Assembly: GCA_900095095.1 (NCBI GenBank)
Contig: FMBT01000306.1
Location: 474,233-538,232 of the forward strand
Source: Fragilariopsis cylindrus CCMP1102
Taxonomy: Eukaryota; Bacillariophyta; Bacillariophyceae; Bacillariales; Bacillariaceae
Length of the DNA: 64,000 nt
Direction of reading: 5' to 3'
In this document: in pieces, positions 19,901 to 43,154 of the stretch
Layout of the letters: each line of letters begins with the position of its first letter
How positions within the stretch are numbered: the first letter of the stretch is position 1
Program-made: the position numbers and the translations under genes
Notes under the pieces: generated by a model
Told to the model about the DNA's origin: nothing
Database searches by the model: none
Seen by the model: only the letters and a program-made list of their open reading frames with translations

Positions 19901-22756
19901 AGCTGGATCCACGCGTCTCGGCGTTGTACCTGTATTCCTTGGAGTGGTAACGGGTTCGGGGGTATTCATGACTGATTTCTGGACTGACCCGAGACCTACA
20001 TTATATTATTATTGTTATTGTTATTGTTATTATAAACTCCATTGATCTGCCTGAAAGGAGTCGAGTTTGATGATGTATTATTAACGTTCCTCTTTACACC
20101 ACCTCCGAACGCAAGTTTCAGTTTGGGTTTTGGGGAAGGCGCAATGATCAAATTAGTCCTAGAAGCGGCCGCAACTGTTTCGGGTGCCGCCATAGGCTTT
20201 CCTCCCCCCAACTTACTCAATGACTGGGGCATATTGTTGTATTTTGCATCTGATGGAGGAGAAGCAAATCCTCGTGGTCGAATCTTCACATTCGACGATG
20301 GAGATGCTCGATACGTGGAAATCTTTGTTGAAGAAACTGGAAGAATGTTTCTACTTTCCCTCTGGCTGATAGCAGTAATTGCAGATGAGCGAGTTGATCT
20401 ATTTCGAAAGTTATCCTTCTGCTCGAGTTCCTTGCGTTTTGCATCGAGTGCTGCTAATTGGGAAGTCATGATTTCGTTGACAGCGGGGGCAATCACCGAG
20501 CCAAGTGGAGGAGCTGCATGCATTTGCATTACAGAAGAAGCTTGAGGTTGAGCTCCATATCCATATGCGGGTGCCGCTGTTGGTGCGCCGAATAAACCAC
20601 CTGCAGGTGGTGCTGGAGCTGAATTACCGAATAAACCTCCAGCGGCAGGTGCACCGAAAGCGCTAGGCGCCGGCGATGGTGCTCCAAAAAGGCCTCCTCC
20701 TGCTGGTGCGGGTGGGGCACCGAATAAACCTCCTCCTGCTGGGGCTCCTATCGAAAGAAGAAACAATTGCGTACGTGCGAGCGGGCGTAATAATAGTACA
20801 TAATAGATTCTGTGAGCACAAATATGTTTCTGAAAAAGATATCGCATCAAGAAACCAAGTCAAGCCCAAGATACTTCAAGTACCAACAAACAAAAAATAA
20901 CAAACACTAAACGTACCAAAAGCTGCCGGTGCGGGAGCTCCAAAAAGGCCTCCTGCTGGAGCTGCGGGTGCGGCACCAAATAATCCTCCTCCTGCAATGG
21001 GTGCAGGACTTCCAAACGCTCCTGCTGGTGCAGGGGCGGCTCCGAATAAACCCCCTCCTACTGGTGCGGGTGCAGCACCAAACAACCCTGGTGCTGGTGC
21101 GGCACCGAAAGCTCCTACTGGAGCAGGGGCTACTCCGAATAAACCTCCTCCTACTGGTGCGGGAGCGGCTCCGAAACCTACTTGTGCTGGTTGTCCCCCA
21201 AAATTATTCTGTGCCGCTGGACTACCAAACGCTGTTGCTGGTGCAGGTGCTGCTCCAAATAAACCTCCTCCTACTGGTGCAGGAGCGGCTCCGAATCCAC
21301 CTAATGGTGCTGCTGCGGGTTGTCCTCCAAACAAACCTCCTGCTGGTGCAGCTGCGGGTTGTCCTCCAAACAAGCCTCCAGTTGTTCCTGGTTGTTGTGC
21401 CCCGAAGCCACCAGTCGGCCCAGGAGTTGCACTCCCTTTATTACCCTGACTATAATCTTCGAATCTTAATTCTTCAAAAGATTTATTCTCATATTGTTGC
21501 ATGGCTGAAATGGATTGCAAATTGATATTGGTGGATCCATCTTGTCGTGATTGTGCTTGGAAAGGAGCAATTCTTGTTCCTCCTCCTCCTGTACTAGCAG
21601 CGGGAGACCCAAATGCATTGTTTCCTCCAGGTGGGGCTTGAGTGGGTGCGCCGAACATACCTCCAGAAGCTTGAGGTTGTCCTCCAAACGCATTGTTTGT
21701 GGTTGCACCACCAAATCCTCCTCCGGTATTACTACCAAAAGCACCTCCAGTTGCCGGTGCAGGAGCGCTTCCAAACAAACCTCCAGTTGCCGGTGCAGGA
21801 GCACTTCCAAACATACCAGGAGCCTGTGGCGGTGCTCCAAAGGCTGTTGGCTGTGCTGAACTCGCTCCAAAACCTGTCGATGGGGCACCACCGAAACCAG
21901 TGTTTGCAGAAGGAGCACCAAATCCGACGGATGCACTAGGTGCTCCTATTTATGAAAATATGAAAATAAATAAAATCTAGTGAGCAAGAAATAAAAGAAT
22001 AAAATCATATCAAGACATTAAAGGAATAAAAAACCACAAAAAACACGAAGAAATGATCATTCATTCTGTTGACATACCAAAAGCTCCTCCTTGTGACGGT
22101 GCTGGAGCTCCGAAACCTCCTCCTTGTGCAGGCGCACCACCGAACAAGCCTCCCGTTGCAGGTGCAGGAGCCGCTCCGAAGGGACTACTTGATGCCGACG
22201 GTTGTCCACCGAAACCTGTGTTAGTGTTGGGTTGCCCTCCAAACCCTCCCGATGCAGCAGGAGCACCACCAAAACCAGTCGACGGTGCACCTCCGAACCC
22301 GCTGGCTGCAGGTGTTGCTTGTCCTCCAAAACCACCAAATCCTCCTGGTGCTGGAGAAGGAGCACCGAACGCTAATTTTTATAAAATTGATTTATATTTT
22401 ATTTTTTCGTCGTCGTTGTGACGTGCAAGTTAAAAGAGTTCAAGTTAGTAATGAATACCAGGAATGATTAATTATATAAGTACAAATGAACATGTTGACA
22501 CCGTCACCCGTCACACACCGATCGATACACAAAAAGTAAAATGAAATTCATTGGAATAATTATTATTAATCAACAATAAAAAAGTGTGGCATAAAATATA
22601 AAACGTACTATTACCTCCAAAACCCCCACCACCAGCTGGGGCTTGTCCAAATGGTGCAGGTGCTGGACTTCCAAATCCACCAGGCGCAGATGGTTGTCCG
22701 AAGCCACCACCACCGGCTGGGGATCCGAATGGTGTTTGACTTGCTCCACCAAACAT
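16901..22756 (-). CDS. NUP98: NUP98-NUP96 nucleoporin precursor
   Basis: A single precursor for two nuclear pore proteins: FG-repeat NUP98 and scaffold NUP96 of the Y-complex. Exons are 22609-22756, 22078-22371, 20917-21945 and 16901-20747; introns are 237, 132 and 169 bp, all phase 1. Exons 1-4 encode dense FG/GLFG repeats. Exon 3 also holds a GLEBS-type Gle2/Rae1-binding motif (ISAMQQYENKSFEELRFEDY). A linker with KLKLAFGGGVKRN leads to the autoproteolytic domain (about 19330-19950), which ends LLVDHFSRYGL; cleavage between F and S in HFS (19385-19393) would release NUP96. The rest is helical NUP96. One base is missing in an AAT/AAC repeat near 20000, producing a false TAG before MNTPEPV. 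Corrected length is about 1772 residues. Confidence 0.93.
19385..19393 (-). other. NUP98 autoproteolysis site codons (His-Phe-Ser)
   Basis: The HFS triad is the conserved self-cleavage site of the NUP98 autoproteolytic domain. Here it is preceded by LLLVD and followed by RYGLDDD. Confidence 0.88.
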
Positions 22757-37607: not shown

Positions 37608-39865
37608 TTAACCAAATTTGGGGAACATTACTCCGTCGACAACATGAGCAACTCCATTGCCTACAATGAAGTGATAATAAAAGGAGAAAGAAGTAAAAGT
37701 TGGAAATAGAGAGAGAGAAATGAGATGTCGATGGAAAGTGTACCAATTGAAAAGACAAAGGCAAAAGCAGGTACTTTAGATAGAAACGTACAGAATTTGA
37801 TATCAGTTTGAATGATCTGAGGAGAAGACATTAATTGAGTATTCCCGGCACCATTCTGATACATCGCACTGTTGATGCATTTGGTACGGCTTGAATCACC
37901 GTTGAACATTTCAATTTTTTCTCCACACTTGAGGTCATCACTGTTGAGGATTTTACCAGGAATGGCATGGAACATAAGCTAGAGAGAGGAAGACAAGTGA
38001 TAAAACAAAAGATGTACGTGGTTAGCAAGTTTCTTGTTTGTTAAAAGCATTGATAGAAATATACCAAACAAAAGAACACATCAACGTACGATATTGTTCA
38101 CAGTATCATTGGACAATGGTTCAAGTGTCTCTCCAGCTTTCTCAAAAGCATCATCATTGGGAATGAAAAATGTCCACGTTTCTTTGTCAAAGGAGGAATC
38201 TAATTTAGCAGCCTTTGAGGCATCACAGAAAAGAATAAAATCCTTGCCATCGCAAACAATGTCATCTATTAATATTCATGAATTAATAGAGAACAAGAAG
38301 TGTGTTAGTAGAAGCATCAACTGTGTTCGATAATGAAATGTATTCGAAGGAGCAATGGATTATAAATATGAGACGCATACAAACTTACCGAGTGATTTGC
38401 ACTTGTCACTGTTGTTGTCATTGTCGTCACTATCACCATCTCCTAGCATATTCTCAGGATCAACAATTGTGACAATAGCACACTGTGTCCAAACCTGTGG
38501 TGTTTGTTCGGAATCCCATCTCCAGCTAACAACGTAATCACCATTGAGACCTTCGGGAACCTTCAATTCGTCAACAACTTTCCAATGATATAGAACAGCT
38601 TCCAAATCAGGAGAATTTCCAAAGGCACCATAACCATAATATCCCGGAGGAGCGTGATCCGTGAACTGCGGTTCCGTGCAATTTCCAGAAAAACTGCCGT
38701 CATTGTTTTGTGATATGTTTTTGCATGGAGGGATACCAAGTTTCCTCCATGTGCTACCCTTTGGCATAACACCATCAGTATTATCGTCATTGATATCCAT
38801 GGCGTCAAATGTAATGTTTACGGTGGTGGTGCCGTCATCAGATGTGACAATGAATAAAGATTTATCACTGGCAAATTCCATCACGGTTGCTTGAAAGCAG
38901 GTTTCGTCAAGTGTGTTGTTAATCAAGTTATCAAGAGGACAGAGACGATATTGATGTCCTCCTCCGTGGTTGGCATTGATGGCATATGATCCTTCAACAA
39001 TCTCTCCTGAGGTCCAAACAGTTGGATATGCAGCTACCGAGTCACCCTGTGCATTTTGCATCAGCATGTTCACCTCCCAGGATAGAACGGTAGATCCTAA
39101 AGTGCCGGCAGGAGGGTCCATATTCTTAGGCGGCCTATCTCTGTTGACGATTCCACCTTCACCATGGGTAACAAGATAGAAACCGTCGCCGGGTCCAGCA
39201 ATGTAATCTCTTGCATCTGAAAATTTCCACCCACCAAGAACGCCGCAAGAATCTACGAGGGGTGCAGTTCCAGGAACAAACCACGGATTGCCTGCATAAA
39301 TTGATGCCGAAATATTGCCTTTGTCTACCTCGTTCTGCCTATATTCCATATCCTTTGCACACACTTTGGTATTATTTTTATAATGCCTGGCTGCGACCGG
39401 ACCGTCGCAGTCACCATCAAAGTAGAACTTCGGGTTCGAAAGCTGGTCGATACTTTTCAAAGTAGGTTCCAACAATTCTTCGCAGAACCCCCCCCCACTG
39501 TCCGTTTGGATTTTCACCCTACAAAGAGAAAAAGGAAGATAGGAAGAGAAAGTAGAACAAGGCCAGGTGATGAGTTTGCAATGGCGGAAAAGTTCATGTT
39601 ACATATTCACAAGGATTATTGTTCTATTAACATAGTCATAACATAAAGGAGTACGTACAGTTGCCTTGCATCCTGGCGCTGTTCCGGTTGTAAACCAATT
39701 AACATTGTAGGGATCTACCCCATCTACAGCACATTCACCACTGCAAGGGTTTATCATCCGCTTTGGACCCTCAGGATCAACCAGTCTAGCATGTCCTAAC
39801 ACGGATAGAACCACAGAAGAAGTGATTGCGATTCGAAGAAGGCAAGCATTACTAAACTTCATCAT
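37608..39865 (-). CDS. Secreted LPMO-like protein fused to a fasciclin (FAS1) domain
   Basis: Five exons: 39659-39865, 38389-39518, 38090-38265, 37792-37978 and 37608-37660; introns are 140, 123, 111 and 131 bp. The signal peptide ends VVLSVLG, so the mature chain starts HARLVDP; an N-terminal His is the first ligand of the LPMO copper site. A second His candidate is in ANHGGGHQYRLCPLDN, and a family-like end is SWRWDSEQTPQVWTQCA. Many paired Cys suggest an extracellular fold. After an Asp/Asn linker (GDGDSDDNDNN) comes a FAS1 domain (TWTFFIPNDDAFEKAGE, LMFHAIPGKI, HVVDGVMFPKFG). One extra G in a G9 run (39489-39497) breaks the frame; with eight the join reads NGQWGGFCEELL. Corrected length is about 583 residues. 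Substrate and copper activity are inferred. Confidence 0.78.
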
Positions 39866-41550: not shown

Positions 41551-43154
41551 CTACTCATTAAAACAGAATGATACTCGGGCGTACCTTCGCAAGAGACTAG
41601 CATTGAACTTTACTTTTTCACTTTCGAATCCTCCACGAGCATCGCCCGATAACAACATTTGAATCAATAGTGCATGTACGTAGGCCTGTAATTCATCCCT
41701 CATGGTTGCTCCTGCCTTCAACCAGACATAAATAGCGGAGTTGATACCGTACCCAATCACGTATAGCAAACTATCTCGTTCCTCAAAGTCAGACAGGTAG
41801 AGTGTACAGTTTTGCAGACGATTCCAATCAAGAGTTCTCGATACACGAATCGACGGAAAGACAAGGTGCCATATGGAGGAAAGCAAAGACTCTTGAATAG
41901 ATTCAGGAGAGTCAAAGTCGTGAATAGATTCTAACAATTCCGGTGATATTGATGCCGCTTTGATGTGATCGTCACGATCGTTTTTGCTATTCTGATTTTT
42001 TGACGTCATCGTTGCCGTTATCGCCGTCTTTTTCTGTTGTCGTACTTGATTGGCCATAATGACGATCGATTGTCGAAATAGTTGTCGCGTTCGTTCTGGA
42101 TTGAGTGTCCTTAGTTTTAATAATGAAACGGCCTTATAATTCGCAAATACATGAATTACTGTTAAGATTCCAAATAATAGCCACGTCCAAAAGAAGGGAT
42201 TATTTTGACCATGTCGATCCAGTAATTTCGCTACCCAAACACCTCCAATCATTCCTAGAAGACTTACTAACGTCTCTTGCGTTGATTCCTTAGCAGTTAG
42301 ATCTGCTACATTCCCACCGTCTTTTGCAAAATGCTGCGTAATATGTCCCTTGGTAGCACCTGCAGTAATCCCACAAATTGTTTTCCCGATCGTACTTAAA
42401 CCTAAGATCCATATCGACCAATCCTGACCAAAATATGGAGCGACCATATCTAGTGTCAAAGCAACATCGTTAATAACGTCTGCCAGTAATAATCGAAACT
42501 CTTTAGCATGCGAATCGAAGTACGATCCAGCGAAATAGGAATAAACAAGACCCCCAATCATTCCTGTTCCATCCCGTAATGCCCAACTTAAAGCTGCTGA
42601 CAATGCTGTAGCTTCAGCATTACCAACTCCAGCAGCTTCAAAGACTGCCTTCGCAGACACAACACCTCTCCAATATGAGCTTTTTTTGTTTTATTTATGG
42701 TGCGTGAGATAGAATATCATATGTTGTACCAGAATAGTTTTCTAGTAACAGAATCAAGGTGGATCAAAAATTGATAATTTGCAACTTACCATAATCCCTG
42801 TAAGCCATCGTACATTTGATATGGTAGATACGTCGAACCAACCGAATGGGGATATCCCAATGGTAAAAATAGTTGTCGTAATACTTTAACTGGAGAACGA
42901 AAAATATCACCTGTAGGAATCATCTTCTTCTTCGTCATCTTCGTCACTCGTCTATTATTACTCATTATCACCTTGCTATTGCTACCATTACTGTTGTTGG
43001 ATACTATTTCTTCTACTTGTAACGTATATTCACATACGGGTTGTTGTTGTTCTCGCGACGACGACGAATCTGCTTCACCTTCGTCAGCGTCGGTGCTGTT
43101 TTTACCCTTCAGAATCGAAGGATCCTCCTCATATTCGAGAACCGTTACCTTCAT
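41551..43154 (-). CDS. RUS (root UV-B sensitive, DUF647) family protein
   Basis: Exon 1 is 42790-43154 and exon 2 is 41551-42679, with a 110-bp GTAAGT intron (phase 2). The junction restores the conserved LQGLCSYWRGVVSAKAVFEA. The DUF647 core is clear: FLPLGYPHSVGSTYLPYQMYD, then ALSWALRDGTGMIGGLVYSYF, then KEFRLLLADVINDVALTLDM, then ITQHFAKDGGNVADLTAKES, with several membrane-associated segments. The N-terminal 85 residues are acidic, Ser/Asn-rich and low complexity, and a Lys/Thr/Asn insert lies in the C-terminal half. Plant RUS proteins act in vitamin B6-linked growth and auxin transport; the role in algae is unknown. No frame break in about 490 residues. Confidence 0.92.

Follow-up and report, generated by a model that had tools for sequence, protein, structure and literature searches.

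A predicted histidine-brace domain joined to a fasciclin domain in the diatom Fragilariopsis cylindrus

The closest described counterparts of the protein considered here are lytic polysaccharide monooxygenases (LPMOs) and proteins with fasciclin (FAS1) domains. The copper site of AA13 consists of the N-terminal His, His91, and Tyr224, of which the latter two are invariant in this family, and the AA13 surface is grooved (Lo Leggio and colleagues, PMC4338556). AA15 has been reported in Bacillariophyceae and other algae (PMC5823890). The axial residue is Tyr in AA9, mostly Phe (Tyr in ~10 percent) in AA10 (PMC11087555), and Tyr, Phe, or Thr in the species mapped for AA15 (e.g. Tyr184 in TdAA15A), where it is not given as family-defining (PMC5823890). 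LPMO stability and the formation of radicals have both been related to the aromatic residue next to the copper, and in one AA10 LPMO a nearby, non-axial Trp accepts holes from the copper (PMC11087555). In LPMO-like X325 proteins, Asp serves as the fourth ligand of the copper. The adhesion trails of diatoms are reported to contain fasciclins (PMC10939406). Here, we describe a gene from a stretch of 64,000 nucleotides (the window) of Fragilariopsis cylindrus CCMP1102 (contig FMBT01000306.1, positions 474,233 to 538,232 of the forward strand), in which an LPMO-like domain is followed by FAS1.

The gene is located on the minus strand, with its start ATG at 39865 and its stop codon ending at 37608, exactly as in a preliminary description made from the sequence alone. 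The spliced model comprises five exons and four GT-AG introns (140, 123, 111, and 131 nt; Table 1). The protein begins with a leader followed by HARLVDP. Next comes a long LPMO-like region, which includes ANHGGGHQYRLCP and RWDSEQTPQVWTQC, and an acidic linker connects it to a complete FAS1 domain. This arrangement of domains is genuine and is also conserved among relatives. The C-terminal FAS1 domain, already recognized in the preliminary description together with the His after the leader and the second-His motif, was confirmed by a full-length match to PF02469 (profile positions 3-123 of 123, E = 2.7e-18, above the 22-bit cut-off) and by a fold match of the relative P0001. Inspection by eye of exon 5 revealed no hydrophobic tail after FAS1. 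We regard these proteins, with a probability of about 0.6, as a diatom family in which a predicted secreted His-brace domain of the LPMO superfamily, an acidic linker, and FAS1 act together as a matrix-held copper oxidase.

Conservation of the predicted copper site was assessed in 232 distinct proteins pooled from the matches listed, to which all counts of relatives refer unless stated otherwise. The leader, MMKFSNACLLRIAITSSVVLSVLG, contains a hydrophobic stretch with the end VLSVLG, its Gly directly preceding HARLVDP. The first column of the mature protein (His1) was His in 169 of the 170 relatives with a letter at this position (62 of the 232 had a gap); the N-terminus of the lone exception, P0192, looks truncated. 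Of 169 relatives, 168 had G, A, or S directly before His1. The second His, i.e. that of NHGGG, was found in 231 of 232 relatives and was placed on residue 91 of AoAA13 by HMMER alignments (counted from printed chain positions). Hence both sequence features pointed out earlier, the leader ending just before a His and the second His within HGGGHQYRLCP, stood up to comparison. Signal cleavage would leave His first. The alignment of the P0001 structural model with solved LPMOs started at His26, which fell onto mature residue 1 of both AA13 and AA15, and the immunoglobulin-like beta-sandwich fold of the LPMO superfamily was found. Judged by superposition and alignment, His1 and the NHGGG His may be near enough to bind one copper.

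In the same HMMER alignments, residue 224 of AoAA13 was matched by the Trp of QVW, so that this Trp seems to occupy the axial place itself. The column was Trp in 227 relatives, Phe in three (P0127, P0134, and P0151), D in P0010, a gap in P0171, and Tyr in none. The Gln two residues before it was kept in 229 of 232 relatives. If real, a family with Trp at this position would provide a direct test of the role of the aromatic residue in stability and radical formation.

Compared with the described systems, the LPMO-like domain resembles AA13 most. Starch-active AoAA13 (PDB 4opb) gave the best profile match as well as the best structural match, with His91 and the QTxQ(I/V)xxxCAD strand aligned. 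Membership in AA13 is not claimed. Tyr224, invariant there, is Trp here; AA13 is listed as Pezizomycotina (PMC10952591), whereas the named relatives of the present protein are algae; and the domain spans ~396 residues in P0001 versus 233. The likeness might suggest a grooved surface here too. TdAA15A of AA15 (PDB 5msz) was the second-best match in the profile comparison and, with regard to fold, the second among LPMOs; this was a comparison with a single AA15 chain, and its matches (E = 7e-4 and 1.3e-5) were weaker than those of AA13. The AA15 proteins mapped have Tyr, Phe, or Thr at the axial place instead of Trp, and no FAS1 fusion is described for it in the sources at hand. AA10 (Pfam LPMO_10, PF03067) shares the fold and the His1 placement in the P0001 model, and some relatives exceed the Pfam cut-off (e.g. 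P0039 with 28.4 bits), but the window protein stays below it and the AA10 axial residue is mostly Phe. Periostin, TGFBIp, and diatom fasciclins resemble the C-terminal part, which is a complete FAS1 by sequence and by fold match; unlike them, the present protein carries a single FAS1 attached to a metalloenzyme-like domain. Word searches found no LPMO-like and FAS1 fusion in the literature (most subscription papers being out of reach), and the papers listed mention the two protein types separately; this agrees with the earlier statement that no characterised enzyme of this order was known.

Several results weigh against the assignment of the domain to active LPMOs. These include (i) the LPMO_10 scores of the window protein (16.8 bits), P0002 (18.7), and P0005 (18.5), all below the gathering threshold of 23 bits; (ii) the alignment of His1 to the AA13 profile, which was not significant (-3.0 bits in one case, no such stretch in another); (iii) the Foldseek superposition of the P0001 model on 4opb, which was poor (E = 9.3e-6, template modelling score 0.40 by target, root mean square deviation 12), with an unrelated glycosidase in the second row and a good fit in the VIA realignment alone; (iv) the low confidence of the P0001 model in its FAS1 portion (predicted local distance difference test [pLDDT] block means of 42-77); and (v) a second model, P0039 (mean pLDDT 66), whose best alignment begins at residue 20 while its His is residue 19, an offset that falls in a low-confidence stretch. 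Furthermore, the relatives were collected for their similarity to queries with Trp, a choice that is biased towards Trp and could miss a remoter Tyr branch. The sources consulted on the LPMO families compared describe no LPMO with an axial Trp, and activity of the Trp-bearing family cannot be assumed because its axial residue is neither Tyr nor Phe. Overall, the preliminary interpretation was supported in part: FAS1 is strong, AA13 is the nearest solved match, and the LPMO-like domain is backed by AA13/AA15 sequence and fold matches while falling short of LPMO_10, a shortfall on which that description was silent, as it was on the AA13 likeness, the Trp, and the frame break treated below.

To the extent that the site works as in LPMOs, removal of the signal peptide would expose His at the N-terminus, and one copper would be held by His1 and the NHGGG His, with Trp at the axial place occupied by Tyr or Phe in other LPMOs and the conserved Gln two residues before it. 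The copper, once reduced, could be activated by H2O2 or O2 and oxidise C-H bonds of an extracellular polysaccharide, while FAS1 would tie the enzyme to the matrix of the cell surface or of the exopolymer and Trp may conduct holes away from the copper. Diatoms store chrysolaminarin, not starch, so starch is not assumed as the substrate. If true, the fusion to FAS1 would allow an oxidase to be anchored in the surface matrix of an alga. More tentatively, and with the odds somewhat against it, the relatives may constitute a large marine eukaryotic LPMO family distinct from AA13 and AA15 with a redox-active Trp by the copper, the Fragilariopsis FAS1 fusion being a tethered oxidase that remodels the alga's own or sea-ice exopolymer.

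Named relatives include Alexandrium monilatum, Effrenium voratum, and Pycnococcus provasolii; most others are environmental sequences, and no prokaryotic or viral relatives were confirmed in the searches made. In a metatranscriptome study, AA13 annotations were highly expressed in heterotrophic flagellates and, among phototrophs, comprised a single P. provasolii sequence (PMC10268365); these sequences are likely members of the present family. A FAS1 domain (PF02469) was found in 11 of 120 relatives of one listing and in the same 11 among 57 of another, and these 11 were those with a FAS1-type end motif among all 232. The close relative P0006 (68 percent) has a P/T-rich basic tail where FAS1 would be, so the C-terminal module seems exchangeable. 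We also noted by eye that many relatives (e.g. P0062, P0067, and P0137) display a Cys-rich C-terminal module, CC...SNCTxCLNDKTGDCAYCW...GCxxCW, instead of FAS1; in P0137, a hydrophobic segment follows this module, and no Pfam match to it was listed for that protein. The five F. cylindrus entries are named fasciclin, FAS1-domain, or hypothetical protein only, and the metalloenzyme-like part is therefore hidden from ordinary annotation.

When the LPMO-like exon was searched against the own genome, 20 matches were obtained. Seven loci (L010-L016) have a downstream FAS1, L022-L025 being pieces of L015 and L016, while five (L017-L021) have no FAS1 within ~1.5 kb on either side (FAS1 was sought in L010-L022); small fragments occur at three places (L026/L029, L027, and L028). 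L017 and L018 score equally on two contigs, so that alleles or duplicate contigs may account for some of the loci. The F. cylindrus CCMP1102 entry P0002 is identical to L012 across 544 residues, and pieces of P0005 match L013 at 90-100 percent. A separate single-frame protein, L009 (C604:9442-10104, minus strand), has a His-first LPMO_10 domain (58.5 bits), a GH18 chitinase match (42.2 bits), and a weak chitin-binding type 1 match (22.1 bits, below the cut-off of 27.8), i.e. it is an LPMO-chitinase fusion in a diatom. In the whole-genome FAS1 survey, the best 150 of 222 candidates were scored and every listed one was above the cut-off.

The brace might bind copper without an oxygenase role, as in a surface copper-binding or delivery protein of the kind suggested for LPMO-like X325, with FAS1 as anchor. 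We consider this unlikely, as AA13 and AA15 match better and as the Gln preceding the axial place by two residues is almost always kept. Still less probable is a structural matrix adhesive in which the LPMO fold is only a glycan-binding module with a vestigial metal site. Such a role would fit the description of fasciclins as adhesive in diatoms and the abundance of FAS1 in the genome (at least 150 matches), but His2, Arg, Glu, Gln, and Trp, as well as His1 where present, are near-invariant in the relatives although few of them have the FAS1-type end, which points to a working site.

A matrix-held oxidase at the level of the family is compatible with a further explanation, on which we judge the chances to be even, namely that the window copy is either a pseudogene in decay or affected by a homopolymer assembly error, so that no full protein is encoded as assembled. 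The frames of exons 1 and 2 differ by one base, the break lying at a run of nine G; exon 2 agrees with homologues after the run and diverges from them before it. At this site, the paralogues L013 and L015, which share the intron acceptor, have five G, and the F. cylindrus entries P0005, P0007, P0008, and P0010 read through in a single frame (GQWGGFCEE in P0010). The exon junction KAT/GENP is read likewise in P0005 and P0010. An alternative donor for intron 1, GTAACA, leaves the frame open but adds residues without counterpart in homologues and is not preferred. P0010, the closest F. cylindrus entry, is odd itself, with an unrelated MLIGLQP start and two internal stretches that differ by eye from the window protein, and frame changes or stops in the assembly also affect L015/L022, L016/L023-L025, and L020. 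Like the break itself, these speak for this explanation. The ratio of nonsynonymous to synonymous substitution rates (dN/dS) in the LPMO-like exon was 0.29-0.49 when the window copy was compared with four paralogues, and 0.25-0.49 across ten pairs of five loci (L010-L014 of twelve main loci, L015-L021 being excluded, some because broken). The highest of the ten, 0.49, was that of the window copy with L012. On the other side, the remainder of the gene is open, its splice sites are intact, and dN/dS against the other three paralogues was 0.29-0.33, though such low values are compatible with recent decay.

Table 1. Features of the gene in the window (positions count from the first letter of the window)
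Feature	Position	Strand	Description
Exon 1	39659..39865	-	Leader and N-terminal His region, MMKFSNACLLRIAITSSVVLSVLG then HARLVDPEG...GCKAT; donor GTACGT
Predicted mature N-terminal His codon (His1 of brace)	39791..39793	-	Conserved column; model aligned to residue 1 of AA13/AA15
Intron 1	39519..39658	-	GT-AG, 140 nt; acceptor context same in L013 and L015
Exon 2	38389..39518	-	Most of LPMO-like domain and acidic linker; reading frame open from position 39517
Run of nine G (C on + strand)	39488..39496	-	One-base frame break compared with relatives
Predicted second brace His codon, in ANHGGGHQYRLCP	38966..38968	-	Conserved column; aligned with His91 of AoAA13
Trp codon in QTPQVWTQC, place of axial Tyr224 of AA13	38489..38491	-	Column Trp in 227/232 listed relatives
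Acidic linker MLGDGDSDDNDNNSDKCKSL	38390..38449	-	Between LPMO-like domain and FAS1
Exon 3	38090..38265	-	FAS1, first part; PF02469 match
Exon 4	37792..37978	-	FAS1, middle; PF02469 match
Exon 5	37608..37660	-	FAS1 end, NGVAHVVDGVMFPKFG then stop

Elsewhere in the window, positions 41551-42660 on the minus strand encode a RUS1-type UVB-sensitive protein (PF04884, E = 2.6e-56). Two further minus-strand open reading frames, at 19996-20850 and 20876-21814, are rich in GGLFGAP-type repeats and, by eye, have the look of an FG nucleoporin.
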